This document shows, in pieces, positions 23,335 to 41,176 of a DNA stretch of 64,000 nucleotides. Position 1 is the stretch's first letter; each line of letters begins with the position of its first letter. The translations under genes were made by a program, and so were the position numbers. The notes beneath the pieces were generated by a model, which was given only the letters and a program-made list of their open reading frames with translations, made no database searches and was not told the DNA's origin. This DNA is from an uncultured Naasia sp. (GTDB lineage Bacteria; Actinomycetota; Actinomycetes; Actinomycetales; Microbacteriaceae), in the NCBI GenBank assembly GCA_913778905.1, contig CAJYYA010000023.1, forward strand, positions 62,001-126,000. The letters are read 5' to 3'.

Positions 23335-23368
23335 TCCGGAAGTGCTGTCGGAACGGTCGTCCGATCAG
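23331..23368. terminator. Hairpin shared by convergent ald and FtsK-like genes
   Basis: CTGATC-C-GGA (23331-23340) pairs with TCC-GATCAG (23360-23368) with one bulged C and a 19-base loop. The left arm contains the ald stop codon (23332-23334) and the right arm contains the FtsK-like gene's stop (23365-23367). No clear U-tract follows. A bidirectional terminator is the simplest reading. Confidence 0.45.
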
Positions 23369-25962
23369 GGGCACCACCGGGCCCGCTCGACGGGGTGTCC
23401 GGGCTGTGCAAGCCACACCCGGTCTCGGCCCGCCAGCACCGGCGGAAGCGTCCGATCGCGACTGACAGCGCGGTAGTCGATGATCTTGCACCGGTCGTAG
23501 ACGACGGTCGAGCGGCCGATGCGGGGCCACAGCGCCATCGCCGACTGCCAGCCGAGCGGGTCGATGACCGTGACCACGTCGGCACCGTCCGAGTCTCCTG
23601 CCCCGAACGACGTGCTCTCGCGGGCGTCGCGCACGGGGACCCCGGCTGCTTCGAGCGCGACGATCCTCGCGTCGGGACTGGTCGTGACCAGAAGAGTGCC
23701 GACCGGCAGGGCCGCGGGCAGCACGACGGGCTCCGCACCGTCGGTCGCCCCGGAGCCCGTGCGATCCGACCGGGCCCCGGCCGGGACCTCCGCGATCTGC
23801 AGACGGGCGCCGTTCCAGACCCCGCCGCCGGGCCGGAGGCGCGGGTCGTGCGGAATGGCTGAGCCGACGGCAGCGCGGTGGTCGTCGGCGGACGCGAGGC
23901 GGAGGTTCACCCGGGTGCCGGCGACGGCGAACAGGACGCGTGCCGACGGAGTCGCGGGGCTGGCGAGCGAGTAGGCGAAGCGACGGCCCCGCGCACGGAT
24001 GGCGAGCGGCAACTGTTCGAGGAGCGCCGCGCGGTGATCGCCCTCCACCTGGTCCAGGATCGCGTCGAGGTCGTCGATGACGAGCGGACTCGTGTCGTCC
24101 GACGCCAGCGCATCGGCGACCCGCTCGATCGACGCCGGCCCCGCTGCTGCACCGATGAGCTCCGCCCCGAGTTCCGCCGCCACGGTCCGCATCGCGGTGC
24201 TGCGACCGGAGCCCGCCGCGCCGACCACGAGAAGAGCGCCGTCGACGGACGGGATCCATTCGGCGAGAGGCTGGGACTGGCTGGCCGGCAGGTCGGTGAG
24301 GCCGAGCCGAATCGCGTCGGGATGCGTGCGGTGCGGCAACGACTCGAGCGGCAGTCGCGTGGGCAGCGGCGGCAGCCAGCCGACCGTCGACGGGGCGGGC
24401 CACTCACTGCGGCGGGCGGTTTCGCCGGGCACATCGTCGCGAGCCACGCTCGCGACCTGCACGGGGAATGCCGGCTCCCCGTGCATGGCGATGACGCAAC
24501 GCCCTGGAGCGGACCGGGGGATGCGAGCGGCGCTGTCGTCGCCCACCACCGCGATGCTGTCGCTTCGATCGACCACGCGGAGGGAGATCCGCATCGCGCA
24601 ATTGGCAGCGAGCGAGTCGCGCACGACTCCCGCGGGACGCTGCGTGCAGAGCACGAGGTGGATACCCAGCGAGCGACCTCTCGCGGCGACGTCGACGAAC
24701 ACGTCGTGCAGTTCGCGACGCTCCGCGAGCATGGCCGCGAACTCGTCCACCACGATGACGAGGCGTCCCAGCTCGGGCATCTCATCGGCCGACCGAGCGC
24801 CGGCGGTGCGCAGTCGAGCCTCGCGCGACCGCAGCTCGGCGCCCAGAGCCGCGGTGGCGCGGTCGATGTCCGCCCCGTCGAGGTCGGTGACCAGCCCGCG
24901 AACGTGCGGGAGGCCCGCGAGCGGGTCGAACGCGGCACCGCCCTTGAAGTCGAACAGCAGCAGCGCGACCTCGTCGGGCGAGCGACCGTCGGTCAGGGCG
25001 AGCAGCCAGGAGACGAGGAGCTCGCTCTTGCCGCTGCCCGTGGTGCCGCCGACGAGCGCGTGCGGGCCGTCGCGGATCAGATCCACCTCGACGGGGCCCG
25101 ACTCACCCACCGAGAAGATCGCCGATAGACCGCCGGACGACGCGGCGGGGAGGTCGAGCAGCGAGACGAAGTCGGGGACACTGCCCGACCCCTTGCCCAT
25201 ACCGATGAGCTCCCGACGCTCGAGGGTTCCGAGCATCTCCGGCTCGAAGGTGCGCAGGTCGTCGATCGCGCTCGCACGAAGCACCCGCGCGGTGCGCGGC
25301 CCGTCGACCTCGATGAGCAGACGGCAGTGCTCGGGCAGCTCCTCGGGCCGGTCCGCGTGCTCGACCGTGGGGATCCGTCCTCCTCGTCCGGCCCGCCAGA
25401 GCAGCTGGGCCCGGATGGTCTCGGCGAACGCCTCCCGGAGCGCGGAGCGCCCGACCACCCCCACCCCGCCCGCGGCGTCCACGACGAAAGGCGCGTCACG
25501 GAGGACGGCCGCCGCCGCCACCAGGTCTCCGTCCGCCGAGTCCTGCGGTTCGAGATGCACGCCCGAATCGATGTCGGCGCGGCCGACCCGCACCGGACGC
25601 GAGTTGCCGGTGTCGAGAGGGGCCGACGGCCGCGGGAGGTCGACGAGTCGTCGGCTGCTCGGCAGCTCGGCCTCGGCGGCCCTCCGGCGCCGGTCGTGCT
25701 CGGAGTCGATCTCCACGGCGAGCGCGGCCAGAGCAGTCTCGCGGCGCGCGATGTCCCGGCGACGCGCCTTCCGGACATTGCGCCGACCGTCGATCATGGC
25801 CGCCACGGCCGTGATCGGCCCGAGAGCGGCGAACGCGAGCGCGAAGGGCGACTTGGTCACCGCGAACAGGATCGCGGCGGCGGCGACGGGAGCGAGCGCA
25901 CCGAGCCAGGGGAACCCCGGCGGACGGTGCTCGGCGAGCGGGGGCGGCACGACGAGGGGCAT
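23365..25962 (-). CDS. EccC-like FtsK/SpoIIIE-domain ATPase
   Basis: Membrane-associated ATPase of 865 aa. Two hydrophobic segments near the N-terminus (about residues 18-58, WLGALAPVAAAAILFAV onward) precede a basic RRNVRKARRRDIARRE stretch, as in EccC/YukBA proteins of type VII secretion. The first FtsK/SpoIIIE domain has Walker A GGTTGSGKSE (about 305-314), FDFKGGAAFDPLAGLPHV, Walker B RLVIVVDEFA and LVLCTQRPAG. A second ATPase domain has Walker A VGAAGSGRST (about 582) and Walker B PLVIDDLDAIL. The third ATPase domain of classical EccC is not apparent. GGAGG lies 11 bases before the ATG. It is the last gene of the kinase / giant-protein cluster. A role in export is inferred; no WXG100 gene is nearby. 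Confidence 0.88.
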   Translation of the reverse strand: MPLVVPPPLAEHRPPGFPWLGALAPVAAAAILFAVTKSPFALAFAALGPITAVAAMIDGRRNVRKARRRDIARRETALAALAVEIDSEHDRRRRAAEAELPSSRRLVDLPRPSAPLDTGNSRPVRVGRADIDSGVHLEPQDSADGDLVAAAAVLRDAPFVVDAAGGVGVVGRSALREAFAETIRAQLLWRAGRGGRIPTVEHADRPEELPEHCRLLIEVDGPRTARVLRASAIDDLRTFEPEMLGTLERRELIGMGKGSGSVPDFVSLLDLPAASSGGLSAIFSVGESGPVEVDLIRDGPHALVGGTTGSGKSELLVSWLLALTDGRSPDEVALLLFDFKGGAAFDPLAGLPHVRGLVTDLDGADIDRATAALGAELRSREARLRTAGARSADEMPELGRLVIVVDEFAAMLAERRELHDVFVDVAARGRSLGIHLVLCTQRPAGVVRDSLAANCAMRISLRVVDRSDSIAVVGDDSAARIPRSAPGRCVIAMHGEPAFPVQVASVARDDVPGETARRSEWPAPSTVGWLPPLPTRLPLESLPHRTHPDAIRLGLTDLPASQSQPLAEWIPSVDGALLVVGAAGSGRSTAMRTVAAELGAELIGAAAGPASIERVADALASDDTSPLVIDDLDAILDQVEGDHRAALLEQLPLAIRARGRRFAYSLASPATPSARVLFAVAGTRVNLRLASADDHRAAVGSAIPHDPRLRPGGGVWNGARLQIAEVPAGARSDRTGSGATDGAEPVVLPAALPVGTLLVTTSPDARIVALEAAGVPVRDARESTSFGAGDSDGADVVTVIDPLGWQSAMALWPRIGRSTVVYDRCKIIDYRAVSRDRTLPPVLAGRDRVWLAQPGHPVERARWCP

Positions 25963-26067
25963 GCGACCATCTCACCTCCGCGTACACCGTCCGCGATGCG
26001 AAATGGAGGGCCTGTGCTCGGAACACGCGCATCCGGCGGATGTGGAGGAGACGGGTCGGCCCGCTGG

Positions 26068-26637
26068 TCAGCCGACGAGGAAGAACTGCTCTCCGATGTC
26101 GACCCGGGACCCTCGAGCGACGCGGGTGCGGCGACCGCTGGGGCACAGGCGCGGTGAGCGGTCGGGTTCGCGCACGACGGTGCCGTTGGCCGAGAACCGA
26201 TCGCTGATCCAGAGGACCCCGCCGTCCTGACCGAACTCGAGGTGCGTCTTCGATACGGAACGCCCCGGGTCGTCGATGGCGACGTACTCGTCGAAGTACT
26301 CCCCCGGCTGGGCGGTCGGGCGCCGCCCGATGAGCCCCGAACCGGCCACCGTGACCGACTCCCCGGTCGAGAAGTGGAGAACGAATGGGACGGGATCGGT
26401 CCGACGCTCCACGAACCGCGTCGACTCGTCGGGCACCGGAGCGACGGTGCCGGACTCGACTTCGACGAGAGCTTCGGACTCCCGGCCGCCCTCGGCCTCG
26501 ACCTCCACCACCCCCGCGGGTTCCGGCGCGGGAGCGACAACCACCTCGACCTCGTCGCGCGGATACACGGCATTGCCGCACTCCCCGCAGAACATGGCCG
26601 CATCGGGCAGCGGAGCCTCGCAGTAGACGCACCTCAT
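26068..26637 (-). CDS. Zinc-ribbon and FHA domain protein
   Basis: A 189-aa cytoplasmic protein. The N-terminus is a zinc ribbon with two CxxC pairs (CVYCEAPLPDAAMFCGECG, residues 3-20). An acidic Val/Glu/Pro linker follows to about residue 80. The C-terminal FHA domain (about 85-189) has the conserved GLIGRRP, SVSKTHLEF (phospho-Thr-binding Ser and His) and NGTVV. FHA domains bind phospho-threonine peptides, so it could read the output of the kinase encoded in the same cluster. Its ATG overlaps the end of the transglutaminase-like gene by 4 bases, so they are translationally coupled. The FtsK-like gene follows after 105 bases. Confidence 0.9.
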   Translation of the reverse strand: MRCVYCEAPLPDAAMFCGECGNAVYPRDEVEVVVAPAPEPAGVVEVEAEGGRESEALVEVESGTVAPVPDESTRFVERRTDPVPFVLHFSTGESVTVAGSGLIGRRPTAQPGEYFDEYVAIDDPGRSVSKTHLEFGQDGGVLWISDRFSANGTVVREPDRSPRLCPSGRRTRVARGSRVDIGEQFFLVG

Positions 26638-28964
26638 GCGTTCCCTTCCCGTCTCGCCGAGCGGCTCTCGTCACGACGCCTCCGGAAAGACCTGAGCGTC
26701 ACCATCGCCTTGATCCGCTCCCACCGGCCTCGTCCGGCAGTCATCCCCACGCACAGCTCGTCGACGCGCCGCCAGACCTCGGCGGCGTCCTCGTCCGCCG
26801 GCTGACCGGGGGCGAAGGTGGCCCGGTCGACCGTCGCTGCGAGCACGAGCGACTCGCGGGATCCGACCGCTTTGGCGACCTCGTTGCGCGTCGCGTGCGG
26901 GGCCGGCTCGACCCCGTTGTCGACCATGGCGTCGGTGAACTCGGCCCAGGCTCCCGCGATGCGCTGCAGCGGGGGCCCGCGCAGCCTTCTCCGGCGGCGC
27001 CGTGCAGCCTTCGCGGCGATGACGCCGAGGAACGGCGACAGCGCCAGTGCGATGGCCAGCAGCGCCCAGCCCAACACGGCCAGAACCGTCAGCAGGATGC
27101 TCAGCCACACCGGCTCCTGGGCCGGAGGCTGCTCCTCCTCGACCTCCGGTGGGATCTGGATGTCGCTGCGCTGATCCTCCGCGGCGGGCGGCGGGACGAC
27201 CGACTGCGGACGCGCGACCTTGGTCGCGTCGTCGGGCTTCTTCTCCGGGATCTCCCGCACCGGCGGATTCGGATCGATCGCGACCCACCCCTGGTCGGCG
27301 GTGTTCACCTCGATCCACGCGGTCATGTCGGATCCGAGCAGCTCGACGCTCTCCCCCGCGCTCGCCTCGTCCGGGATGCGGAAGCCCATCACCACGCGGG
27401 AGGGGAACCCGAGCTGACGGGCCATGAGCGCGGCGGTCACGGCGTACTGCTCGGCGTCGCCCAGCATGGGGTCGGCGACGAGCAGCTGCGCGATCCGGGA
27501 GACCGAGTGGCCGGACGCGCTGAACGGCTCCCCCGGAGACCCGTGGCTGATGTAGCCGTCCTCTTTGAGGCCGCGGATCGCCGCGAGCAGACGGGCGCCA
27601 TCGGATGACGCGCCCGTCGTCCAGCCGGCGAGCGCCGATGCGAGCTCGTCGGGACTCTGCGCGATCGTCGGCACGGCGGCGCCCCCCGGGCGGAGGCTCG
27701 CGATGTCGTCCTCCGCCACGGACGCGGGGATGACGGTGTCGACCCGGTAGACGTCGCCCTGTGCGAGACCGACCAGGTCGGCGGCGGTTCCGCTGTTGTC
27801 GTTGTAGTAGAAGGCCGACTGCAGATCGGCGGCCCGCGGCCCCTGGAAGTCGACGTACCGCAGTCGTCCCGCTTCCGGGACCCACGGGCCGGAGTACCCC
27901 TGGACGGCCACGTCGAACGTCGCTCGGCGACCTGTGATGTCGCTTCGGTCGAAGGGGAACGGCACTCGGGTGAACGCCCCGGACGCGCTCGATACGGCAG
28001 CGGATCCGACGGTGTAGACGACCCCGTCGTACGTGTCGAGCGTCGCGACGTTCAACCGTTCGCCCGGCTCGAGTCCGGTCACCGTCAGCTGCGGCGCGTC
28101 GGCCCCGCGCGGACCCACCCAGGTGCGGAAGGCCGAGAGGGGGCTGGGGTAGTCGCGGGGATCGAAGGGCTTCTCGATCGCGGCGCGGAGGACGTCACGG
28201 GGGCCGCTGACCGGCACCAGCTGCGTCGCGACGAGCGAGGCGCCGACTGCGGCGATCAGGATGACGGCCGCGCCGGCCGCGGCCCGGCCGCCGATACGGC
28301 GCCGGTCGCCCCCCGCTTGCGCGACCGTGCCCGCCTGCTCGTTGAGTCGGCGGACAGCGGCCTGACGCTTGCGCGCGCGCGTCCAGACCAGGAAGACGGT
28401 CGTGAGGACGAGCAGAGCGAGCAGCGCCGGGAGCGTCCCGGCTCCGGTCAGCGGACCGAACACCGTTCCGATCAGGAACAGGGCGACGGGGCCGATGACG
28501 GCGAACTCGGGAGTTCTGGTCCGGAGCGCGATCGTCAGCGTCGTCACCTGCAGCACCAGAGTCGACAGGAACACCGGGATGAGCAGGCTCTCGTACGACC
28601 CGACAGGGAGGGAGATCGTCAGGAGCTCCTTCCACGACAGCGCCGTTCCCGAAACGAGGTCGAGCAGGCCCGGGACGGTCGGCAGCACCCCGCCGATCGT
28701 CCGGTCGGGTACGGCTGCGGGAACGCCCAGTATCAGGTAGGCGGCAGCGGTCACGCCGATGAGGGTGAGCGCGTTCCATCCGCGGAGCGCACCGGCCACC
28801 GCGATCGCGACGCCCGCCACGATGGCCACACCCGCCGCGATGATCAGGTTGGGGCTCTGATGGATCGGCCAGAAGGCGACCGCCGCCGCCCCGTAGGCGA
28901 TGATCTGCTGGACGACGGTCGGCAGCAGGAACGAGGCGCCGAAGCGCGTCGGTGTGGTGGCCAT
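26634..28964 (-). CDS. Transglutaminase-like membrane protein lacking the catalytic Cys and His
   Basis: A 776-aa protein with about seven N-terminal transmembrane helices (about residues 12-215) and a large extracellular region. The transglutaminase-core fold lies at about 455-570, followed by a C-terminal helix at about 625-648 and a basic cytoplasmic tail of about 125 residues. Members of this DUF3488-TgpA-like family normally have Cys-His-Asp. Here the Cys position is Ala504 (LGDAEQYAVTAALMARQLGF), the His position is Thr548 (DMTAWIEVN), and only Asp564 (VAIDPNPP) remains. The codons read clearly (GCC, ACC). It therefore looks like a pseudoenzyme. It overlaps DUF58 by one base and the FHA gene by 4. 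DUF58-transglutaminase-MoxR sets are common; the degenerate site is the odd part. Confidence 0.88.
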   Translation of the reverse strand: MATTPTRFGASFLLPTVVQQIIAYGAAAVAFWPIHQSPNLIIAAGVAIVAGVAIAVAGALRGWNALTLIGVTAAAYLILGVPAAVPDRTIGGVLPTVPGLLDLVSGTALSWKELLTISLPVGSYESLLIPVFLSTLVLQVTTLTIALRTRTPEFAVIGPVALFLIGTVFGPLTGAGTLPALLALLVLTTVFLVWTRARKRQAAVRRLNEQAGTVAQAGGDRRRIGGRAAAGAAVILIAAVGASLVATQLVPVSGPRDVLRAAIEKPFDPRDYPSPLSAFRTWVGPRGADAPQLTVTGLEPGERLNVATLDTYDGVVYTVGSAAVSSASGAFTRVPFPFDRSDITGRRATFDVAVQGYSGPWVPEAGRLRYVDFQGPRAADLQSAFYYNDNSGTAADLVGLAQGDVYRVDTVIPASVAEDDIASLRPGGAAVPTIAQSPDELASALAGWTTGASSDGARLLAAIRGLKEDGYISHGSPGEPFSASGHSVSRIAQLLVADPMLGDAEQYAVTAALMARQLGFPSRVVMGFRIPDEASAGESVELLGSDMTAWIEVNTADQGWVAIDPNPPVREIPEKKPDDATKVARPQSVVPPPAAEDQRSDIQIPPEVEEEQPPAQEPVWLSILLTVLAVLGWALLAIALALSPFLGVIAAKAARRRRRRLRGPPLQRIAGAWAEFTDAMVDNGVEPAPHATRNEVAKAVGSRESLVLAATVDRATFAPGQPADEDAAEVWRRVDELCVGMTAGRGRWERIKAMVTLRSFRRRRDESRSARREGNA

Positions 28965-30390
28965 CAGACGGCTCTCGCGCGGGCCAGGGACTTCTGGAGG
29001 TCGTCGAGGAATCCCACCGTCAGAACGGTGAGTTCACCCACTCGCGTCAGACCGGGCACGAAGCCCGCGTCGCAGACCACCGCGATCACGTCGACACCCG
29101 GCGGGAATGCGGCGGCTGCGCTCCGCAGACGGGCGACGCTGGGCGTCGACCCCAGAACGAGGTAGGCCACCGAGATGCCGGACACGTCCTCCGCCGCGAC
29201 GCGGGCGAGGTCGCGGATCCCGAGCGCGGCCGACTCCGTCTCGATCCCCGCGAGGTCGTCGAGCAGACGTGTCGGCGTCAGAGTGCGGAGCGGGCGCGAC
29301 GCGAGCACGGCGCGCTTCGCGAATTCCGGGGTGCTCTCGCTGACCACCACCGACACGCTGCGGCCGTCGCGGATCGCGCGGACGCCGAGGGACCCGGCGG
29401 CGCTCACCGCGAGTTCGAACTGCTCGGGACTCTCGTAGTCGCTGCTCGCCAGGGACAGCGCGACGAGCAGTTGGCTGCGACGCGTCTCCTCGAACTGCCT
29501 CACCATGTAGGCGCCCTGCTTGGCGGTCGACTTCCAGTGGATGAAGCGGCGTTCGTCGCCCGGGCGGTAGTCGCGCAGAGCGTGGAAGGCGATGTCGCTC
29601 GAGGTGATGTCCCGTGTCACCTGGCCTTCGAGATCACGCATGAACCCCGTGCTCGACGACGGGATCGACACCGTCGCCGGATGCACGTAGAGCTCGACGC
29701 TGGCGGACCACACGTGCTCTCGGCGGACCAGGCCGATGGGATCGGCGCGAACCGTGCGGACGGGGCCGATCCGGACGACGCCGCGCCGTGAGGTCGGGAC
29801 GGTGAACACCTCTTCGTGCGAGGAACCCGGCCCCAGAGACGGCAGAGGCAGCTCCAGCAGCCCGTCGCCCACCGGCACCTCGATCCCCGCGCCGAGCAGA
29901 CGACGACGGCGCGGGTTGACGACGATGACCGACCCGACGGCGCGTTCCCCCACCACGACGCGGTCGTGCGCCATGACGAGACGCAGGTCGTGGGAGCTGC
30001 CGCCGATGAGGAAGAAGCCGGCGACCGCGATGATGACCGTCAGCCCCCAGCCGACCGCGGCGATCTCGGCGAGCGAGAGGCCGTAACCGAGAGCGAAGCA
30101 CAGGACTGCGGCGCTGAGCATCCCCCACCCGACAGGCGTGACGACGTCGCCGACCTGACGAGCCGCGAGACGGACCCCGCCGAGCGCCGCCCGCCCCGCG
30201 CGGACGAGCAGCACCGTCAGGTCCGCGACGACGCCCGTGCGCGTGCCGACGATCCGCGCGCGCTCGTTGCGCAGCTCCGGTCCCGCGGCCGCCGTCACGG
30301 CCGCGCGGGTCGAGGTCGCGCCCCGGACGGTCTTCGTGACGGTGCGCCCCTTGGCGGGTCCGCGGCCGCTCCGATGACGTGAGGTCGTGC

Positions 30391-30394
<4 letters not shown>
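28964..30394 (-). CDS. DUF58 / von Willebrand A-like membrane protein
   Basis: A 476-aa protein. A basic N-terminal cytoplasmic stretch of about 90 residues is followed by two transmembrane helices (about 92-135; GWGMLSAAVLCFALGYGLSL and AVGWGLTVIIAVAGFFLIGG). A beta-rich region follows (RRRLLGAGIEVPVGDGLLEL, RRGVVRIGPVRTVRADPIGL). The DUF58 signature IAFHALRDYRPGDERRFIHW is followed by KSTAKQGAYMVRQFEETR at about residue 290. A vWA-like domain makes up the C-terminus. DUF58 proteins accompany MoxR ATPases, often with a transglutaminase-fold protein, as here. It overlaps moxR by 4 bases (GTGA) and the next gene by 1 base, so the three are tightly coupled. Confidence 0.9.
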
Positions 30395-31362
<968 letters not shown>

Positions 31363-31432: not shown

Positions 31433-34400
31433 CTAGTTTCGGGCCTGGTAGAGCGGGCTGAGGTACGACGAGCCGCCCACGGTGACCCGCACCTGGAACG
31501 GGCCACCGTCCGGGGCCGCGCAGGTGCCCGGGGTGGCCCCGCCCGGGAGCCAGGTCGATCCGGCGTCGCAGCTGTATTCCACGGCCGAGTAGGCCCCCGT
31601 GGGGAGAGCGGTCCAGCTCCAGGTCCTGAGGGCCGCATCGAAGCGCAGACCGGTCGGGACCGTGTCGACGGGCGTGAGGCCGCCGGTCGCACCGGACCGC
31701 GTCGAGCAGAGCTGGGTTCCGCCGGACCAGGTCTCGCAGACCTCGACTTGGACGGTGCGGCTCGCTCCGAAACCGAGGGACAGCGTGTCGCCGGGCCGGA
31801 TCGCGGTGGCGCCCCCGCCGTCGACGCTGTAGCGGAACTCGGTCGCCACGGGACCGCCGCCGCCGCTCGTGAACCGGGCGCCGTCGAAGCGGAATTGGTA
31901 CCGTCCCTCGCCGTCGTCGCGCGGCCCGGAGACCTCGGGCGTGTCGGGAGTGCCCGGAGTCTGGCGGGTCGTCGCCTCGAGCTGACCGCTCGAGGTGCAC
32001 CCCTGCCCGTTGTAGGCGAACACGACGAACCTGTTGACCTCGTTGGCGTTCACCGCGAACGTGGTGCTGGTGGCGCCCCCCATGTGACGGAACGAGTCGC
32101 TGGGCGCCGGGACGGACACGGACGGCGAGAAGCCCCCGACCCCGTCGGCCGTGCAACTCGGCGGGACGTCCTGATACCGCGCCGCGAAGAACTGCTGGAT
32201 GCCCGCGCCGTTGCCATCGAAGACGCCGTCCCAGCTGACGGTCACGGACCCGGTCGCATCGCCCTGCGTGATGGCGGCGCCGGGGCTGCCGACGAGACCG
32301 GGCGCCCCGGCGGGGGTCGCCGTGGAACGCGCCTCGTTCCACACGCCGACCGACCCGTAGGTGTCGTTCCGAGCGCTCACCGTGTAGTCCACGGCCCCGC
32401 CGTTGCCGATCGCAGGGTTGGTCACGTCGAGCGAGTACTGCGTGCCGGCAGGATCGGCCCGGTTCACGAAACGCGTGCCGGTGAATCCGCCGACGCTCAC
32501 CGCGTAGGAGGTGATGGGGCTTCCGCCGGAGTCGGCCGGCTTGCGCCAGTACACGCGGAGGCCGTGATCGAGCGGACGGGCGTCGAGCTCCGCGGGCGCC
32601 TCGGGAACGACGTCCGACCACACCGCGTCCGCGAGACGCGTCTCGTCCGAGTTGCCGATCTGGTTCACCGCGACCACTCCGACGCGGATGCGGTTGTCGG
32701 GGCCGTTGCCGGGTGTACGGACGTCGCAGCTCGTGGACGCGCAGAGGGAGCTGCCCACAGCTGTCCCCGAGGCGTCGTAGGCGGTCACCTGGAACCCGGT
32801 GATGGCGGAGTTGTTGAAGGCGCCCGGGGTGAAGCCGACGGTGACACGGCGGTCGCCGAACGACACCGCCTGCAGTCCGGTGACCGGATCGGGACGGTCC
32901 TGAACGGAGACCGTGACGGTCCCCCACACGGCCCGGTCGGGGTCCTCGGTCGCATCGACCACCTGGTACTGCAGTGTCACGTCCCGCGGTTCGACGGAGG
33001 CGGACGCCGTCACCTGGAGCGTCGACCGGTCCGCGCTCGGTGTGATCGCGAGCCCGGCAGGGAGTTGCGACGCGTCGATACCGCGTACCGCGTTGACGCG
33101 CAGCGGTTGGTCGGGGAACGGGTTCGTCGCCTGGTCGTTGGCCAGGACGTCGATCGTCGAGGTGCCGCCGCGGCGCGCGACGCCCGAATCCGCCGCCGCG
33201 ACCGCGAGAGGCCGCGTCGAGGCGACCGTCGTCAACTGGATGCGTCCGGCGTCTCCCGCCGTGGTCGCGTCGCGCACCGTCACGATCACCGACGCCGTGG
33301 TGCCCTTGGGCGTCGTCGGATCAGCGCGCACCGACAATCGGTCGCCCTGGATGGACAGCGAGAAGCCCGACGGGACGGCACCGGCGAAGGAGTAGCTCAG
33401 CTCCCCGACGTCGTCCGGATAGGGGTAGTCGGTCAGGCGGGTGAGGTCGACCACCCGCTCGGTACCCGGCTCGAGGTCGAGGACCGCGCCCTGGAAGACG
33501 GGCGGTTGGTTCTCGCGGGGAAGCACCGTGATGGGCAGGACGAGAGTCGCTCGCCGCCCGTTCGGGTCCGCCGCCGACGTGCCGTCGGTGACCTCGAAGG
33601 AGATGGAGGCGGGTCCGAAGTACTGGTCTTCGCTGCGGTAGCTGAGCGTGTCCGAGTCGACGACGAGGGGCGTCCCGTCGGCGTGCGTCGCCCGGACGAG
33701 CCCGGGGTCGGTGAGGCGCACGCCGCGAGCACCCACCGCCACGACGTAGTCGGCGAGGTCGATGGAGAGGGTCTCCCCGCTCACGACGCTCAATCGAGGC
33801 AGGCCCTTGCGCAGCTGCGGGAGCGCATCGTCGAGGCCCGGCACCTTGATGAAGGCGTACGCGACGATCGACGGGTCCTCCGGGTGACGGACGGCGAACG
33901 GGATGACCCGGCTCGTGTCGCCGATCTGCACGCGGACGAGTCCGCCGTCCGTCACCGAGGCGATGTCCGACCATCCGGGCAGCACCTCCAGCGGGAGGTC
34001 TCGCGAGCTGCCCTCGGCGAAGAAGACCTGGCGCAGGACGTCGACATCGATGCTGGTACGGCCGAGGATGTCGCTCAGACCGAGCACCGTGTCGTCGGCG
34101 ATGGGCCGGGTCAGCGGCGCCTCCGGATCGACGACGACCGTGAGGAAGCTCGATGCGGTGCCGCCCCTGCCGTTGGCGATGGAGTAGATGAACCCAAAGC
34201 GGCCGGCTTCGGCCGGTGCCTCGACCCGCACGAGCGTGCCGTCGACGCTCGCCGTGGCCGCCCCCGTGGGCTCGACCGAGGACAGGCTCAGCTCTTCGCC
34301 GTCGGGGTCCGAGTCGTTCGCGAGCACCTGCACGGCGACGGAGGTGCCCGGCCGGACTGTGACCTCGTCGGGGACGGCGACGGGGTTCCGCGCTCCGGAC

Positions 34401-37400
34401 GCTCGGGGCGAGATGCCGATGCGCACAAGGCCTGTCGCCGCGGCTCCCAGGCTGTCCACGACGCGATACTCGAATGAGTCCGTCCCCGCGGAGTAGTCGC
34501 CTGCCTCGAATTCGATCCAGTCCGCCCCGCTCTCGACGACGACGCCCTTGTCAGGCGTGGACTGCGGTCCGAGCAGCTGGACGGGGTCGCCGTCCGGATC
34601 GACGCCCGCGAGCGGGATCGGGATCCGCACCTTCTCGCCCGCGATGACCCTCGCCGTCACGGTGGTCGGCACAGGCGGGTTGTTGGTTCCGCCGTCCGCT
34701 TCGCGCACCGCGATCTGAACCTCCGCGGTCGACCACTGCCCGTCGGGACCGTTCACCCGGTAGGTGGCGCTGTAATCCCCCGCCTGGTCGGAGGCGAGGA
34801 AGCGGAGCTGGTTCTGCGAGGTGAACAGCAGGCCGGCGGCCTCGGGCAGGTTGGAGACGAGGGTCGGGTCGAGGGTGAGGCTCTCCCCGTCCGGTTGTTC
34901 GTCGTTGTCGAGGACGGGGATATCGATGGCCTCGCCGACGCGCACCGACACCCGGTCGGGGACGGCGATGGGGGCCTGCAGGCGCGCCGGCTGCGGGATC
35001 TGCACCACCGTGACGGACCCACGTGTCTCGGCCAACCCGTTGCTGAGGGTGTAGCCGAACGAGACGGGCTCCTGCAGCGGCTCGGCGAGCGATACGCGGA
35101 GGAGTCGCTGTTCGAGCAATTCGACCCGGATGCCGAGGGAGGCCGGAGCGTCGACCTCGGTCACGAGCAGCACGCCACCCGCCGGGTCGATGTCGGTCGC
35201 GAGCACATCGACGTCCTGGGACGCGCCCTCGCGGATGAAGGCCGTGTGGGGCACCGCGACGGGCGGACTCCCGGGGTCCGGCGGCTCCTGCACGTCGACC
35301 CGAACGGTTCCCGTCGCCGTCACCGAGCCGTCGCCGACGATGTAGTCGAGGTAGCGGGTGCCCGCCGTCGAGCTCGTGATGCGGAAGGTCCCGCCCTCGT
35401 AGTCGGGTGAGATCCTGACATCGGCCTTGTCGGGGACGTTCGTGAGCCGGATCGTCCCACTCCCTCCGCGCACGTGCACGAGAGGGTCGACGACCGTCTC
35501 CTCACCCACGTAGGCGAGCACCGCGAAGGGCTCGGCGATGATCGGGACCTCCCCGACGGCTCGCACGGTGACCGCGAGCGTACCGGGGCTGTCGGAGCGA
35601 CCGTCCGACACGACGAGCGACACCTGGGTCACACCCTGGGTCGATGCCGCCTCGGTGAAGACGACCTCTCCGCTCGGCTTGTAGGTGACGCCGTCGGGAG
35701 CCGCGGTGGACGCCCCGGTGAGGAAGAACGGGTCCCCGTCGGGGTCGTACCAGTCGCCGAGCACCTGCGCCGTCGCGCGGCCGCCTGCCGCGACCGTCGC
35801 CTTCGAGGTGCGCACCTGCACCGGCGGGGAGTTCTCGCTCTCGCTGCGAAGGGTGACGACCACGGTCGCCGACGCCGTGCCTCCGCGTCCGTCCGTCACC
35901 GTGTAGCGGAACGAGATGGGCCCCTGGGCTCCCACGGGCACGTCGAGCAGTATCTGCTGCCGGTCCCCCGTCAGCGTCAGGGTGCCGCTGTCGGCCGGGA
36001 TGGGGGTCGTCTCCGTGATGACGAGGACGTCGCCGTTGGGGTCGTAGTCGTTGAGGAGCACGGGGAGGACGTTGGAGCGCCCGGGTCTGGCGCCCAGCTC
36101 GTCGTCCACCGCGATCGGCGCCTGCGGTGTCGTCTCGTAGACGGGCGGGACGTCCTCGTCGTTCTCCTGCTCGTCCCGGGTGTTCTCGTCGCGCGACAGG
36201 AGATCGCCCCAGTTGTCGATCAGCGCGTTGCCGTCCTGCACGGCCCAGCTCGCTCCCCCGCGTGTGTCGTTGAGGAGCACACGCCGCCCGTTCGCCGCGA
36301 ACGCGAGCTGCGCGGTCGCGGCCATGTCGGTCAGGGACGTGACGACGCCGTCGCCGTCCGGATCCACGCCGGTCGCACAGCGCGACCACACGGCCCCCGA
36401 GGCCCACGCGGCCCAGCCGCAGCCGTCGCGCACCAGCGGCGCCGCGGTCGTCCCCTGCCCCGGCTCGCCGTCGGCGGCCATGAGCACCCGCGGATCGGCT
36501 CCGCCGGTCGGCACCTCCACGAGTCCCGCGTCCGAGGCGATGAGCAGCTCGTCACCGGCCCCGCGGCCGCCCTCGTCCGCCGTCGCGGAGATCTGCAGGC
36601 GAGGCTCGTCGTCCAACGCGATGACCGATGACAGGTCCACGGACCCGGCATCCTCCCGGTAGAGGGTGCGGGTCGTCGCATCCAGCAGAGCCCAGCGCCC
36701 CGAGACGGTCGTCACCTGGAACGCGTCCTCCGCGGGCGGCGGGGTGTCGCCTTCGCCGGAGACGGTCCAGGTGCGCGTCACCGCGGCGCCGGCGACGACA
36801 TCGACGAGCGACATCTCGCCGCTCGTCGGCGAGTAGACGACGAGTCGACCCGACGAATCCATCGCGGCGACCGAACCGGGTCCGAACACCAGATCGGGTC
36901 CGGTCTGCGAGTCGAACGAGTCGAGTTGAGAGCTCGGGATGATCCAGGCCTCCCCCGCCCCACCCGAGTGGATGACCGTCGTGCCGCCCGCTGCGCCGGA
37001 GTCGGTCGAGAAGACCTGGGTCCCGTCGGGCGGCACGGGAACCGTCGCCGCGATGGACGAGGTCACCGGATCGACGATGTCGAGCGTGCTGTTGCCGAGG
37101 TCGTGGACGACGACGTTCGCGCCCTGCTGCACGATCTCGAGGGTGCTCGTCGACCCGGTCACGACCGAGTCCAGCTCCCGCACCTGCGTGTTGGCGCGGC
37201 CGACCGCCTGTTCCGACCCGTTGACGACCCAGACCGCCGCGCCGTCGAGGTCGAGACGCTGGCCCCGGTACCCGTCGCTCGCGATGGCGACCGTGGACAC
37301 CACGGCGACGATGGCCACGCCCGCGACCACGGCCGAGACGCTCGCGCCCCGACGGGCGATCAGTTTCGCGAACCGGTTGGCGGCGACCTTCCGCGGCTGC

Positions 37401-37405
37401 TTCAC
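31433..37405 (-). CDS. Giant membrane-anchored surface protein with cadherin/Ig-like repeats and FN3 domains
   Basis: A 1990-aa protein. A short basic cytoplasmic start (VKQPRKVAANRFAKLIARRG) leads into one transmembrane helix at about 24-43; the rest is outside. Residues about 45-415 look like a beta-propeller (repeated strands such as LDLDGAAVWVVNGSEQAVGR). A series of roughly a dozen repeats of about 90-100 residues runs from about 428 to 1500, each with P-x-A-V-x-D...VLxND-x-D-P-D/N-G-D and a closing SF.Y.V.DG.GG. DPDG loops suggest calcium binding. About five fibronectin type III domains fill 1500-1990. No C-terminal sorting signal is present, so the N-terminal helix is the anchor. The GTG start overlaps the kinase stop by 4 bases. 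Confidence 0.9.
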   Translation of the reverse strand: MKQPRKVAANRFAKLIARRGASVSAVVAGVAIVAVVSTVAIASDGYRGQRLDLDGAAVWVVNGSEQAVGRANTQVRELDSVVTGSTSTLEIVQQGANVVVHDLGNSTLDIVDPVTSSIAATVPVPPDGTQVFSTDSGAAGGTTVIHSGGAGEAWIIPSSQLDSFDSQTGPDLVFGPGSVAAMDSSGRLVVYSPTSGEMSLVDVVAGAAVTRTWTVSGEGDTPPPAEDAFQVTTVSGRWALLDATTRTLYREDAGSVDLSSVIALDDEPRLQISATADEGGRGAGDELLIASDAGLVEVPTGGADPRVLMAADGEPGQGTTAAPLVRDGCGWAAWASGAVWSRCATGVDPDGDGVVTSLTDMAATAQLAFAANGRRVLLNDTRGGASWAVQDGNALIDNWGDLLSRDENTRDEQENDEDVPPVYETTPQAPIAVDDELGARPGRSNVLPVLLNDYDPNGDVLVITETTPIPADSGTLTLTGDRQQILLDVPVGAQGPISFRYTVTDGRGGTASATVVVTLRSESENSPPVQVRTSKATVAAGGRATAQVLGDWYDPDGDPFFLTGASTAAPDGVTYKPSGEVVFTEAASTQGVTQVSLVVSDGRSDSPGTLAVTVRAVGEVPIIAEPFAVLAYVGEETVVDPLVHVRGGSGTIRLTNVPDKADVRISPDYEGGTFRITSSTAGTRYLDYIVGDGSVTATGTVRVDVQEPPDPGSPPVAVPHTAFIREGASQDVDVLATDIDPAGGVLLVTEVDAPASLGIRVELLEQRLLRVSLAEPLQEPVSFGYTLSNGLAETRGSVTVVQIPQPARLQAPIAVPDRVSVRVGEAIDIPVLDNDEQPDGESLTLDPTLVSNLPEAAGLLFTSQNQLRFLASDQAGDYSATYRVNGPDGQWSTAEVQIAVREADGGTNNPPVPTTVTARVIAGEKVRIPIPLAGVDPDGDPVQLLGPQSTPDKGVVVESGADWIEFEAGDYSAGTDSFEYRVVDSLGAAATGLVRIGISPRASGARNPVAVPDEVTVRPGTSVAVQVLANDSDPDGEELSLSSVEPTGAATASVDGTLVRVEAPAEAGRFGFIYSIANGRGGTASSFLTVVVDPEAPLTRPIADDTVLGLSDILGRTSIDVDVLRQVFFAEGSSRDLPLEVLPGWSDIASVTDGGLVRVQIGDTSRVIPFAVRHPEDPSIVAYAFIKVPGLDDALPQLRKGLPRLSVVSGETLSIDLADYVVAVGARGVRLTDPGLVRATHADGTPLVVDSDTLSYRSEDQYFGPASISFEVTDGTSAADPNGRRATLVLPITVLPRENQPPVFQGAVLDLEPGTERVVDLTRLTDYPYPDDVGELSYSFAGAVPSGFSLSIQGDRLSVRADPTTPKGTTASVIVTVRDATTAGDAGRIQLTTVASTRPLAVAAADSGVARRGGTSTIDVLANDQATNPFPDQPLRVNAVRGIDASQLPAGLAITPSADRSTLQVTASASVEPRDVTLQYQVVDATEDPDRAVWGTVTVSVQDRPDPVTGLQAVSFGDRRVTVGFTPGAFNNSAITGFQVTAYDASGTAVGSSLCASTSCDVRTPGNGPDNRIRVGVVAVNQIGNSDETRLADAVWSDVVPEAPAELDARPLDHGLRVYWRKPADSGGSPITSYAVSVGGFTGTRFVNRADPAGTQYSLDVTNPAIGNGGAVDYTVSARNDTYGSVGVWNEARSTATPAGAPGLVGSPGAAITQGDATGSVTVSWDGVFDGNGAGIQQFFAARYQDVPPSCTADGVGGFSPSVSVPAPSDSFRHMGGATSTTFAVNANEVNRFVVFAYNGQGCTSSGQLEATTRQTPGTPDTPEVSGPRDDGEGRYQFRFDGARFTSGGGGPVATEFRYSVDGGGATAIRPGDTLSLGFGASRTVQVEVCETWSGGTQLCSTRSGATGGLTPVDTVPTGLRFDAALRTWSWTALPTGAYSAVEYSCDAGSTWLPGGATPGTCAAPDGGPFQVRVTVGGSSYLSPLYQARN

Positions 37406-38823
37406 GCGCTCGCGCACCTCTCCGGGCTGGGCACTCCCGGGCGCCCGTCGCGCAGAACGGTCACGGTGATGCACACGCCGTCGGCATCCGGGCGGTCGAC
37501 CGTGAAGGTGGTGCCGCGCTGGACGCTGGTGCCGCCGTCGTCCGTGCGGATGCGATAGCTCTCCGACCCCGTTCCGCCGACGGCGTCCCAGGTGAAGCGG
37601 ATCGTCGCGCCCGACACCTCGGATCGGATGTCCGACACCGTGGGGATCTGATCGTCGCCCGCGCGGATGAGCGCCAGTGCGGAGGTCGCGCCGATGGCGA
37701 TCACGAGGACGGAGGCGACGACGACGATCCACGCGACGCGGTTCGTCGACTTCGCATCGGCCTGAGCCACGAGAGACCCCACGCCCGCCGATCCGCTCCG
37801 CGCCCCGCGCGCAGCCGCGTCACCGCGCTGACCGCCGGTCGTCTCGGCCACGCGCGAGCGACGACGGCGTCGATCGCGATTCGGGACCGGGCTGGGGATC
37901 GCACGGATCCGCGTCTTGTCCTCGAGGTCGCCCACCGTGGAGAGCGCCCAGTCGTCCATGACGACTTCGAGCGGTGTCTGCGGCAGACCCAGCTCGCTCT
38001 CGATCGACTGCAGCTCGCGGATCAGCTCGAGCATGCTCGCCGGACGCTGGGCCGGCTTCTTGGACATGGCTCGCCGCAGGACCTGTTCGAGCTGCGGTGG
38101 GACGTCGTCGCGCCCGAGCGGTTGCGGCACCGCCCGGTTGATCCGCGAGATGAGGTCGACCGACTTGTTCTCGCCGCCCGCGATCTCGAACGGCGACCGA
38201 CCGGCGAGCAGGCTGTAGACGGTCGCCGCCATGCTCCAGACCTCGCTGGCCACGGTGCCTGCCGTCTCGTCCATCAGCACCTCGGGCGCCGACCACGGAA
38301 TCGACAGACCGATCGACTCGGTGCGCTCCGATTCCGAGAGGGTCGCCGCGATGCCGAAGTCGGAGAGGACCGGGTGGCCGTAGGCCGTGGTCAGGATGTT
38401 CGACGGCTTGATGTCGCGGTGCAGGACGCCGGCGCGATGCGCGGTCTCGACTGCGCTGGCGATGCGGATCGCGATCCGCAGCACCTCGGGGACCGGCACG
38501 CGCTCCCGCCGGTAGCGCTCGGTGAGCGTCGAGGAGCAGTACTCCATGACCAGGTAGGGACGGCCGTCGCTGGACACGCTCGCCTCGTAGACGGTCAGGA
38601 TCGAGGGGTGGGTCGACAGCTGGGCCATGAGGTTGGCCTCGGCCTGGAACATCTGGCGGACGTGGTCGTTGACGACCTCGGCCAGCATGACCTTCACGGC
38701 GACCTGTCGGCGAGGCATGTTCTGCTCGTACAGGAACACATCGGCGAACCCGCCGGAACCCAACGCACGGACGTAGCTGAAACCGGCGAGGTTCGGAGGG
38801 GTCGACGGCAATCGGCGTGCCAT
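37402..38823 (-). CDS. Transmembrane Ser/Thr protein kinase with FN3-like extracellular domain
   Basis: Hanks-type kinase of 473 aa. The catalytic domain (about residues 15-280) has the glycine loop ALGSGGFADVFLYEQ, VAVKVM lysine, HRDIKPSN, DFGIA and a Pro-Trp-Ser-Ala-Pro-Glu substrate loop. A basic linker (RDRRRRRSR) leads to one transmembrane helix at about 362-384. A compact extracellular domain of about 85 residues (IPTVSDIRSEVSGATIRFTW onward) has a fibronectin-III-like pattern and two cysteines. AAGGAGG lies 5 bases before the ATG at 38823; an in-frame GTG two codons upstream is less well placed. The gene overlaps the giant-protein gene by 4 bases, linking sensor kinase and surface protein. 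Confidence 0.94.
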   Translation of the reverse strand: MARRLPSTPPNLAGFSYVRALGSGGFADVFLYEQNMPRRQVAVKVMLAEVVNDHVRQMFQAEANLMAQLSTHPSILTVYEASVSSDGRPYLVMEYCSSTLTERYRRERVPVPEVLRIAIRIASAVETAHRAGVLHRDIKPSNILTTAYGHPVLSDFGIAATLSESERTESIGLSIPWSAPEVLMDETAGTVASEVWSMAATVYSLLAGRSPFEIAGGENKSVDLISRINRAVPQPLGRDDVPPQLEQVLRRAMSKKPAQRPASMLELIRELQSIESELGLPQTPLEVVMDDWALSTVGDLEDKTRIRAIPSPVPNRDRRRRRSRVAETTGGQRGDAAARGARSGSAGVGSLVAQADAKSTNRVAWIVVVASVLVIAIGATSALALIRAGDDQIPTVSDIRSEVSGATIRFTWDAVGGTGSESYRIRTDDGGTSVQRGTTFTVDRPDADGVCITVTVLRDGRPGVPSPERCASA

Positions 38824-38892
38824 GGACACCTCCTTGCACAGCGGATGCTCGGACGCCTGGCGGGCGCGCTCGACGGGGGAAGACGAACCCCG

Positions 38893-38898
38893 AGTCTA
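38893..38898 (-). promoter_or_regulatory. Candidate promoter of the kinase-giant-MoxR operon
   Basis: TAGACT on the minus strand follows a run of Ts, about 70 bases upstream of the kinase ATG, in the 157-base gap after the PP2C gene. It would give a leader of about 63 bases carrying the strong AAGGAGG site. Inferred. Confidence 0.4.
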
Positions 38899-38954
38899 AA
38901 AGACGGGGGCGCGCCACCCTCCGTCTGGGTGTCGAGCCGCCCCGAATGCAGCAC

Positions 38955-38968
38955 CCCCCAATAGGGGG
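38955..38968 (-). terminator. Short GC hairpin after the PP2C gene
   Basis: CCCCC-AATA-GGGGG lies 12 bases beyond the PP2C stop codon, with no U-tract. It could attenuate read-through from the FHA-PP2C pair into the kinase gene. Confidence 0.35.
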
Positions 38969-38980
38969 CAGACCGGCTGG

Positions 38981-39820
38981 TCAGGAGTGGCGGCCCGTGC
39001 CCCGCCTCGGCACCGTCTGGTCGAGATCGAACTCGCTGCTGGTCGAGATCACGTCCACCACGATGACCGTGATGTTGTCCCGTCCGCCGCGGTGGAGAGC
39101 CGAATCGAGCATTGTCGCAGCGGTGTCGTGCGCACTCTTCCCCTCCCCCATCGCCGAGCGGATGTCGTCGTCCGACAACTCCTTGGTGAGGCCGTCGGAG
39201 CAGATGAGGAGCCGCAGCCCCTCGCTGACCGGGATCATCCACAGATCCGGCGAGGGACTGTCGTTGAAGCCGATCGCGCGCGTGATGACGTTGCTGTCGG
39301 GGTGGTGCTCGGCCTGCTCCTTGGAGATCGCGCCGGCGTCGACGAGCTCCTGGACCACGGAGTGGTCGACCGTGACCTGCTCGAACAGGCGGCCCCGAAG
39401 CTGATAGACGCGTGAGTCGCCGATGTTGAAGACGGCCCAATAGGGGTCGGACCCGACGAGCGTGAGGGCAGCCCCGGTCACGGTCGTCCCCGTACCGAGC
39501 GACGTGCGGTGGGAGACCTGCTCGACGTCGCTCGAGGCGGCCGCGAGAGCGTGCTCGACGACATCGAGGTCGATGAAGTCGGTCTCGATGACCTCGGCCA
39601 GCCGCATGACGACGGCGGCGCTCGCGAGATCCCCCGCCGAGTGCCCGCCCATGCCGTCGGCTACCGCGAAAACGGGATTGCAGGCGACGAAGCTGTCCTC
39701 GTTGACGGCGCGTTTGCGACCGACGTCGCTGAGAGCCGCCCACGAGAGGGTGACTTCGAGATCGGGGCGCCGCGGCACCGTCACGGTGTGACGGTGAGTG
39801 CTGCGGCCGATCTGGGTCAC
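38981..39820 (-). CDS. PP2C-family Ser/Thr protein phosphatase
   Basis: Metal-dependent (PPM) phosphatase of 279 aa, cytoplasmic, likely to reverse phosphorylation by the kinase encoded next. Motifs in order are RKRAVNEDSF (Asp/Glu metal ligands), VFAVADGMGGHSAGDLAS, GTGTTVTGAAL, VFNIGDSRVYQLRG, LLICSDGLTKELSD and GRDNITVIVVD. A short C-terminal tail contains DLDQTVPRR, with Thr269 in a setting like the DDTIV sites of the adjacent FHA protein. The start is GTG at 39820 with AGGACC nearby. The FHA gene ends 63 bases upstream; the kinase follows 157 bases downstream. Confidence 0.94.
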   Translation of the reverse strand: MTQIGRSTHRHTVTVPRRPDLEVTLSWAALSDVGRKRAVNEDSFVACNPVFAVADGMGGHSAGDLASAAVVMRLAEVIETDFIDLDVVEHALAAASSDVEQVSHRTSLGTGTTVTGAALTLVGSDPYWAVFNIGDSRVYQLRGRLFEQVTVDHSVVQELVDAGAISKEQAEHHPDSNVITRAIGFNDSPSPDLWMIPVSEGLRLLICSDGLTKELSDDDIRSAMGEGKSAHDTAATMLDSALHRGGRDNITVIVVDVISTSSEFDLDQTVPRRGTGRHS

Positions 39821-39883
39821 GCGGGTCCTGGCCTGTCCTTGTCTGATTCCGGGCCGGGCCCGAGTGCTGGGTCGAGGAGGACG

Positions 39884-41176
39884 TCAGCTGACCGGCAAGA
39901 TCTCGATCACGACACCGTCGCCGATGTCGACCAGTGTCCCCGGCGCGACGACGAGCGATTCCCCCTGTCGCAACTTTACGTGCGACTGCCCGGGTTGCGC
40001 GACGAAGGTGCCGTTGGTGGTCCGCATGTCGGTGACCACCACCCTGTCCCCCTCCTGGCGCAGCTCGATGTGCGTGCCGCTGATCTCGCGGGACGGGGAG
40101 GCGACCTTGAGGAGCCGCGGCACGGTCCCGGTCACGATGCGCGGGCTGCGCGGCTTGCGCCCGATGTAGACGGGGGTGTCCAGACGGTATGCCGCCCCGT
40201 CTCCGACCCGGAAGCCGTGATGCCGGGCGGTCGGGCCGCCCGAGCGGAACCGGGGATCGAGTTCCAGCCGGCCCGGCGACCAGGCGGCCATGGCCGGGGC
40301 GTCGGCGCGATGCCGCTGACGACTCGTGACGATCGTGTCGTCGATGTCGCCACCCGCGCGGTCGACGGACGACGCGAGCTGCTCGGCACGCGTCGCGCGG
40401 CCCAGCAGAGACCAGTTCCCTCCGCCGGGAGGAACGATCGTGTCGTCGGAGGCGCCCTCGCCTCCGATGGGCGAGGAGCCTCTGGTGGCGTCGGTTCCCG
40501 GCATGGCGGGGATGACCGGGATCGGGGTCGTGATGGGCTTCGCCAGGGCGTCCGGAGCCGCCGCGAGCTTCTGCACCGGGATCGATCCGGTGACGGGGCG
40601 CGGAGTGCGTGGCTCGGTGGCCGCAGCCCCGCGGGGGCGGAAGAGTCCCGGTGCGGGATTCGCCCGTTCGACACGAGCGGTCTCCGTGTCGCTCGCCCAG
40701 GCGAGCCAGGGCGCGCGGATGAGCCCGCTCTGCAGCGGGAGGTCCGAGGAGGCCGCCTCGGTCACGGCACCGGCGGGGCGTTCCGCGGATCCGAGGGAGC
40801 CGCCCAGGGCACCGGCGAACTCGGCGAGGTACCAGGGCTGCATGCCGCGCGAGTCGATCCGCCGCTGCCCCTGCGCGGTCTGGATGTCGACCCGAGCCGC
40901 GCCGCGCACGACGACCGTCACCGGGTCGCCGAGCACGACGACCGCGAAGGTGTCGACCGCGTCGGGGCCGCGCGTGGGAATGGAGGCGACGACGGATTCG
41001 ACGGTGGCGTCGCTCGCCGTCGCGAGGCGCCACAGCTCGGCGACCACCGGAGCGGGGGTCGCCGTCTCGAAGCCGGCGAGCACGCGACCCGCGGCGAAGA
41101 ACACCCAGTTGAGTGCACCTCCCACCTCGGCGGCGAGCGGGGAATAGAAGGCGGTGGCGGTCGTCACAGCGCGCAT
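39884..41176 (-). CDS. FHA-domain protein with internal DDTIV threonine motifs
   Basis: A 430-aa cytoplasmic protein. The N-terminal about 150 residues form a folded domain I do not recognise (FYSPLAAEVGGALNWVFFAA onward, then VVVLGDPVTVVVRGAARVDI). A low-complexity Pro/Ala linker contains two near-identical sites, DDTIV at Thr246 and Thr281. The C-terminal FHA domain (about 335-430) has YIGRKP, SREISGTHIELRQEG (phospho-Thr-binding Ser and His) and TTNGTFV. This resembles FHA adaptors that are phosphorylated on threonines and then bind their own or other FHA domains. GGAGGG precedes the ATG at 41176; a longer in-frame start at 41362 has no such site. It is the first gene of the cluster. Confidence 0.88.
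   Translation of the reverse strand: MRAVTTATAFYSPLAAEVGGALNWVFFAAGRVLAGFETATPAPVVAELWRLATASDATVESVVASIPTRGPDAVDTFAVVVLGDPVTVVVRGAARVDIQTAQGQRRIDSRGMQPWYLAEFAGALGGSLGSAERPAGAVTEAASSDLPLQSGLIRAPWLAWASDTETARVERANPAPGLFRPRGAAATEPRTPRPVTGSIPVQKLAAAPDALAKPITTPIPVIPAMPGTDATRGSSPIGGEGASDDTIVPPGGGNWSLLGRATRAEQLASSVDRAGGDIDDTIVTSRQRHRADAPAMAAWSPGRLELDPRFRSGGPTARHHGFRVGDGAAYRLDTPVYIGRKPRSPRIVTGTVPRLLKVASPSREISGTHIELRQEGDRVVVTDMRTTNGTFVAQPGQSHVKLRQGESLVVAPGTLVDIGDGVVIEILPVS

Follow-up and report, generated by a model that had tools for sequence, protein, structure and literature searches.

Gene content of the locus

We analyzed a minus-strand gene cluster at positions 23365 to 41176 of a 64,000-nucleotide stretch of DNA from an uncultured Naasia sp. 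(referred to here as the window), which an initial annotation had described as nine contiguous genes for phospho-signaling proteins, a giant surface protein, and an EccC-like ATPase. All nine open reading frames (ORFs) are present and correctly placed, with a coding-like GC content by codon position. From 41176 down to 23365, they encode an FHA protein, a PP2C phosphatase, a Ser/Thr kinase, the giant protein, a MoxR ATPase, a DUF58 protein, a transglutaminase-like protein (TGM), a second FHA protein with a zinc-ribbon-like N terminus, and an FtsK/EccC-like ATPase (Table 1). The proposed domains were borne out as well; a Pfam scan of the nine proteins returned FHA twice, PP2C, Pkinase, Big_9/cadherin repeats with one fn3, AAA_3, DUF58, Transglut_core, and FtsK_SpoIIIE, while the zinc ribbon attributed to the second FHA protein proved borderline. 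Overlaps of 1 to 4 bases had been noted at four junctions and agree with the coordinates, i.e., 4 bases between kinase and giant (37402-37405), 4 between MoxR and DUF58, 1 between DUF58 and TGM, and 4 between TGM and the second FHA gene. The MoxR ORF probably starts at 31362 (MTMTPEQ), so that the giant and MoxR genes would not overlap.

Table 1. Features of the nine-gene cluster in the window (aa, amino acids; TM, transmembrane; pThr, phosphothreonine)
Feature	Position	Strand	Evidence
FHA protein, 430 aa, first gene	39884..41176	-	Pfam FHA 4.4e-07; pThr-binding residues conserved among FHA matches
PP2C phosphatase	38981..39820	-	NCBIfam Stp1_PP2C 205.5 bits, below cut-off of 230; metal-site Asp retained in 48 relatives
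Ser/Thr kinase, one TM helix, outer domain of ~100 aa	37402..38829	-	Pfam Pkinase 6.3e-43
Giant surface protein, 1990 aa, counterpart of FN3 of the PFNA operon	31433..37405	-	Big_9 4.2e-70; fn3 3.5e-08 on C-terminal piece
Giant, N-terminal TM-like helix, aa 24-42	37280..37336	-	AlphaFold2 helix, pLDDT low there
Giant, beta-propeller, aa 52-403, probably eight-bladed	36197..37252	-	Predicted model
MoxR AAA+ ATPase	30391..31362	-	Pfam AAA_3 3.9e-62
DUF58 protein	28964..30394	-	Pfam 4.5e-12
TGM, membrane protein, TgpA-like transglutaminase fold	26634..28964	-	Transglut_core match
TGM, site of absent catalytic Cys (Ala504 in GDAEQYA)	27453..27455	-	Motif comparison with relatives
FHA protein, zinc-ribbon-like N terminus	26068..26637	-	FHA 1.5e-04; Zn_Ribbon_1 below cut-off (23 bits vs 25)
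EccC/EssC-like membrane ATPase, two P-loops	23365..25962	-	EssC model 205.8 bits, cut-off 778.4; PDB 4nh0 5.3e-48

Relationship to the PFNA operon of Bifidobacterium

Although no described function had been attached to this gene set, it has a described relative in the PFNA operon of Bifidobacterium, which comprises pkb2, fn3, aaa-atp (MoxR), duf58, and tgm, followed in some species by prpC, a hypothetical gene, and fha (PMC8430577, PMC6803598). The five core genes are arranged identically in both loci, with a transmembrane kinase, an FN3 giant with a homologous N-terminal propeller region, MoxR, and PP2C and FHA accessories. They differ in that the window places FHA and PP2C upstream of the kinase, adds a second FHA gene and the EccC-like ATPase downstream of TGM, and belongs to a member of the Microbacteriaceae.

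The comparison was extended to a family of ten Bifidobacteriaceae genomes (1.8 to 2.7 Mb). Its identity is based on a 16S primer site that we take to be specific for Bifidobacterium, found in 8 of the 10 genomes and in 0 of 11 others. The order kinase-giant-MoxR-DUF58-TGM was found in 5/5 fetched loci of this family, and a profile of the giant N terminus had a single match in each of the 10 genomes, 6 to 8 kb from the cluster DUF58 (E values of 4e-57 to 1.6e-72). PP2C lies downstream in two loci (G044 and G117), with FHA on the same strand in the former and on the opposite strand in the latter. Given the shared order and the giant match beside DUF58 in 10/10 genomes, the two operons appear to be homologous, and the window cluster, with its five core genes in PFNA order, can be regarded from its sequence as the Microbacteriaceae form of PFNA.

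Distribution and gene order

PFNA has been considered exclusive to bifidobacteria, with no orthologues found elsewhere, and interpreted as an interface with the host immune system (PMC8430577, PMC6803598, PMC10688814); the restriction to Bifidobacterium is stated in PMC10688814, and one review likened the operon to the mycobacterial moxR operon (PMC12067865). This restriction is contradicted by the distribution that we observed. We used 18 cluster members to build a DUF58 profile (threshold of E <= 1e-45 in the order sample), which detected a cluster-type DUF58 in 85 of the 159 genomes that represent the order and in 16 of 296 across the phylum, 8 inside the window's order and 8 outside, the window's own genome being counted in both samples. 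Four of the eight out-of-order genomes (G309, G285, G375, and G274) have the giant in a frame of >2100 amino acids, 6 to 8 kb from DUF58; G383 and G341 have weaker giant matches in shorter frames, G268 has weak matches on other contigs only, and G385 has none.

Gene order was compared in two overlapping and therefore not independent sets of loci (e.g., L174 = G004 and L246 = G012b): the best 80 loci of a longer match list with named genera, and 62 loci hand-chosen from DUF58 matches, i.e., 60 fetched loci, the window, and a second cluster on contig C14 of the same genome, with G158, G047, G142, and G100 left out. Profiles of the giant N terminus, DUF58, and TGM matched at all 62 loci of the latter set, followed by kinase (61), MoxR (60), FHA (56), PP2C (48), and the EccC-like ATPase (26). 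The order giant-MoxR-DUF58-TGM was retained in 70/80 named loci and 57/62 of the other set, which is far beyond chance and bears out the conservation that had been predicted. In each of the 10 named exceptions, the locus is truncated by a contig end. As for the five others, G173 is a labeling artifact in which giant and MoxR share a single open frame, two giants follow TGM in G143, MoxR was not matched in G090 or G043, and G017 has a second TGM frame in between. The complete nine-gene arrangement of the window recurred in 26/80 named loci and in 7/62 of the other set, window included.

Named genera carrying the module include Naasia, Leifsonia, Cryobacterium, Frigoribacterium, Agromyces, Planctomonas, Microcella, Curtobacterium, Clavibacter, Arthrobacter, Oerskovia, Cellulosimicrobium, and Demequina. 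Judging from the genus names, they are mostly not gut bacteria, and a role in the host would be, at most, a recent addition to a module that is older. This bears on the proposal made for Bifidobacterium, namely that host cytokines are bound by the giant and host ligands detected by the kinase. Binding of a B. longum FN3 fragment to TNF-alpha in vitro and increased expression in response to TNF are indeed reported (PMC8430577, PMC10688814), yet with the module also present in Naasia, Cryobacterium, Agromyces, Arthrobacter, Oerskovia, Demequina, and other classes of the phylum, we consider an operon for host-immune communication very unlikely. With this distribution, PFNA can no longer be presumed bifidobacterial and host-evolved, and tractable free-living hosts make its function testable.

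The giant protein

The giant comprises 1,990 residues counted from the GTG codon at 37405. Its annotated length held, and it has an N-terminal membrane segment. Pfam fn3 had no match on the full-length protein and matched a separate C-terminal piece only. According to the predicted model, the giant begins with a membrane helix followed by a beta-propeller, an architecture that is new here. By hydropathy, the N-terminal TM-like segment is found in 126/129 giants, and neither a C-terminal TM segment nor an LPxTG motif was detected in any of the 129. In Naasia aerilata (L175), the giant ORF is only 554 residues long and the short ATPase is split into two ORFs (488 and 337 residues), reflecting either broken genes or sequencing errors.

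Intact phospho-signaling sites and a degenerate transglutaminase site

The kinase, PP2C, and FHA proteins had been proposed to form a pThr circuit, which is supported by their catalytic and binding residues. The K, HRD, and DFG motifs of the kinase are retained in 59 to 61 of 61 relatives, a TM-like segment is predicted by hydropathy in 129/131 kinases, and the FHA G-R, S, H, and N residues are conserved in at least 125 of 130 sequences. Walker A and B residues of MoxR are retained in 60/60, and the active-site motifs of kinase, MoxR, PP2C, and the first ATPase module are near-invariant across the fetched relatives. The MIDAS motif (metal-ion-dependent adhesion site; DxSxS) was not seen by eye in the aligned region of 62 DUF58 sequences. 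The kinase may control the giant, as also proposed.

The TGM site is degenerate, a feature that is new here, while those of the kinase, phosphatase, MoxR, and FHA proteins are intact. Its annotated fold stands, being that of a TgpA-like transglutaminase (DUF4129 matched below its cut-off, 21.2 vs 24.8 bits), but the catalytic Cys is absent from 62/62 TGMs of the fetched set and from all 79 readable ORFs among 84 at the named loci; the other five, without a readable motif (L175, L223, and three L230 frames), are from loci that each had another readable frame. The catalytic His is retained in just 11/62, whereas an E-Q pair is invariant (62/62). TgpA of Pseudomonas aeruginosa, by comparison, has an intact Cys-His-Asp triad. 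An active transglutaminase cross-linking the giant to the wall would agree with the Transglut_core match and the TgpA-like fold; with the Cys missing from every readable member and the His from most, while three further transglutaminase-fold proteins of the same genome retain Cys and a His, such an enzyme is hardly to be expected. In this control, a looser motif pattern was readable in 5/6 loci, L259 being unmatched. The PFNA "transglutaminase" is thus predicted to be a pseudoenzyme. In Clavibacter michiganensis (L230), the module is present and four ORFs matched TGM, which would point to a broken or misread gene.

A shortened EccC-like ATPase

The ninth gene had been annotated as EccC-like, an identity that holds in that EccC/EssC models and Protein Data Bank (PDB) chains outscore FtsK. 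The ATPase scores 205.8 bits against the EssC model (8.9e-61, cut-off of 778.4) and 177.6 bits against the EccC model (5e-52, cut-off of 509.15), and it is therefore not an EccC or EssC at the curated level. The top PDB match was Thermomonospora curvata EccC (4nh0, 5.3e-48), with FtsK at 1e-15. In a local alignment, its TM hairpin resembles the hairpin of EssC, and the first module has intact Walker A and B motifs, both features being common to EccC/EssC of type VII secretion. P-loops are found at residues 306 and 581, and a third pattern match at residue 166 lies ahead of the first module, whereas three P-loops are present in the genome's EssC paralogue. Among 45 short ATPases, two P-loop-like motifs were counted in 36, one in 5, and three in 4; among 19 long ones, three were counted in 16, four in 2, and two in 1. 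Pfam found no FHA domain in the window ATPase, unlike in the C14 EssC.

These comparisons support an EccC-like protein rather than a DNA pump. An unrelated pump sitting at the operon end by chance would belong to the same FtsK_SpoIIIE superfamily and could account for the absence of the gene at some loci. We nevertheless find it highly improbable in view of the PDB and model scores and of its position being conserved in 29 of the 37 rows that make up the window's clade, a fork with a support of 92 in a DUF58 tree made by a quick method with many open forks. In that tree, the short ATPase is found mostly in Microbacteriaceae related to the window, and the long type is dispersed. A higher count, 38/46 window-type named loci, is biased upward, the tree groups having been hand-picked with ATPase labels visible, and 29/37 is preferred.

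Linkage to type VII secretion

The C14 cluster encodes PP2C, FHA, kinase, giant, MoxR, DUF58, TGM, FHA, and WXG100, with a 1,553-residue EssC containing an FHA domain on the opposite strand. More generally, an EccC/EssC-like ATPase lies no more than 20 kb away from at least 30 of the 99 DUF58 loci in the order sample, where ~1.25 would be expected assuming uniform placement in 3.5-Mb genomes; 25 of the 30 are in frames of at least 1,465 residues and 5 in frames of 868 to 1,164. Genome-level co-occurrence was dropped in favor of this linkage. A search of the own genome for T7SSa with the window ATPase returned only that ATPase, the C14 EssC, and one FtsK-family place on C17.

WXG100 genes lie within 25 kb of 11/22 other loci (6 over Pfam's cut-off; the nearest matches at G015, G002, G003, G031, and G019 are below it) and of 0/16 window-type loci (p = 7e-4), as counted from Pfam-based places over 38 DUF58 places down to E 3e-33, loci outside the tree being typed by identity. 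A local WXG100 profile, itself weak, found none in 50 named window-type loci. With two P-loops, scores far below the cut-offs, and no WXG100 found nearby, the role of EccC in driving type VII secretion, which the initial annotation had carried over, cannot simply be transferred to the window ATPase. In EccC, the third module (ATPase3) binds the EsxB signal (PMC6954902); the loss of a module, most likely the third, and the absence of WXG100 would therefore fit together.

The module might instead be a regulatory or envelope part of normal type VII secretion, the window locus using a WXG100 encoded elsewhere. Its linkage to EssC and WXG100 is consistent with this, as are the WXG100 matches in 38/40 relatives (at least one each) and an orphan WXG100 gene in the same genome (C1, L036:8927-9220), beside groEL and a two-component pair as identified by eye. 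The window ATPase is one module shorter than the EssC of its own genome, however, and WXG100 is missing near window-type loci by both counts, which makes normal secretion rather unlikely.

T7SSd and T7SSe (Garrett et al. 2024, PMC11217815) likewise combine a kinase, an FHA domain, an Ig-like giant, and an FtsK-type ATPase in one locus, and the C14 paralogue adds WXG100 and an FHA-EssC to this likeness. The described components of T7SSd are WXG100, an FHA-ATPase, a kinase, a protein with one TM segment, and an Ig-like giant (TsdI) that combines a signal peptide with a C-terminal TM helix. Several of these features are absent from the window locus. The main text of that paper contains no MoxR, DUF58, or transglutaminase, all three of which the window locus has, and neither FHA nor one of the P-loop modules is present in the window ATPase. 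The giants of the module have an N-terminal segment and, by hydropathy, in 0/129 cases a C-terminal TM helix like that of TsdI. TsdI was also rejected as a homologue of the giant, with one propeller-giant match per Bifidobacteriaceae genome even in the three with a long EssC, although TsdI itself was not identified. In these 3/10 genomes, the long EssC lies ~33 to 48 kb from PFNA on the same contig. In addition, all ten genomes have an EccC-like ATPase in a frame of 591 to 761 residues away from PFNA (L263, L264, and L266); two P-loops were present in the three that were read, beside an LCP-type gene and once a WhiB-like gene (labels by eye).

No link between PFNA and type VII secretion was found by title or abstract start in the open-access literature, and the PFNA papers listed there do not contain the phrase "type VII secretion." A historical tie of the module to type VII secretion, which we regard as the best reading, joins two bodies of work that stand apart in the searched literature.

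Proposed role of the module

A function may be proposed from what was observed: the gene set with its order and distribution, a giant modeled with a propeller, a TGM site that is degenerate, and an EccC-like ATPase that is shortened. In this proposal, the kinase would sense the envelope via its outer domain and phosphorylate MoxR, as reported for Pkb2 of B. longum (PMC8430577), with PP2C reversing the reaction and FHA proteins reading phosphothreonines on their partners. MoxR and DUF58 would remodel a complex in which the TGM fold has no catalytic role and docks the giant, itself anchored in the membrane and crossing the wall. The ATPase, derived from a type VII secretion system and missing one module, would probably power assembly or export of one dedicated partner rather than of Esx substrates. 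The circuit and assembly part, i.e., kinase/PP2C-MoxR-FHA with MoxR/DUF58-TGM-giant, is moderately supported, and a transport or assembly step supplied by the two-module ATPase, where present, is weakly supported. Taken as a whole, the Microbacteriaceae PFNA as a phosphorylation-controlled actinobacterial envelope-assembly module with a noncatalytic TGM and a shortened type VII-derived ATPase is the reading that we prefer, although it is about as likely as not.

Several observations weigh against this reading. About two thirds of the 99 loci have none of the ATPases listed inside 20 kb, and genome-level co-occurrence is uninformative because EccC-like ATPases occur in 152/159 genomes of the order. 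Eight of the 37 rows of the window's clade lack the ATPase (one is a cut contig), among them one row of Agreia and two each of Frigoribacterium and Curtobacterium, and a search of ~20 kb around the cluster located none in five Bifidobacteriaceae loci; three Leifsonia loci outside the window's fork likewise lack it. The core thus needs no ATPase in cis, and the proposal that the nine genes form one unit holds for a conserved set from which the ATPase is separable. Moreover, loss of the third module is probable rather than certain: the local alignment of the window ATPase with EssC is in step with modules 1 and 2, and of the 45 short ATPases, 9 show either one or three P-loop-like motifs. The degenerate TGM site could also still bind or act by other chemistry, given its invariant E-Q pair.

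A broader reading, possible but doubtful, would make PFNA an old actinobacterial trans-envelope machine, in which a phosphorylation-gated platform of dead transglutaminase, DUF58, and MoxR serves a propeller/Ig pillar. It would first have been an envelope part of type VII secretion, and would have a WXG100-free, two-module motor in Microbacteriaceae and, in bifidobacteria, no motor gene in the operon and a later use at the host surface. Loci in which a type VII-like motor has been shortened and the WXG100 gene is lacking offer a natural experiment.

Additional genes of the C14 cluster

The C14 cluster spans L034:580-17680 and L035:1398-6489 and also encodes a small helical protein. Between its kinase and giant genes lies a 243-residue gene (L034:4429-5160) with no Pfam match, which looks FHA-like by eye with a C-terminal helical part. 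Nearby, on the minus strand from ~L034:19977 onwards, an N-terminal helical region is followed by hydrophobic segments, judged by eye to be a possible type VII substrate.

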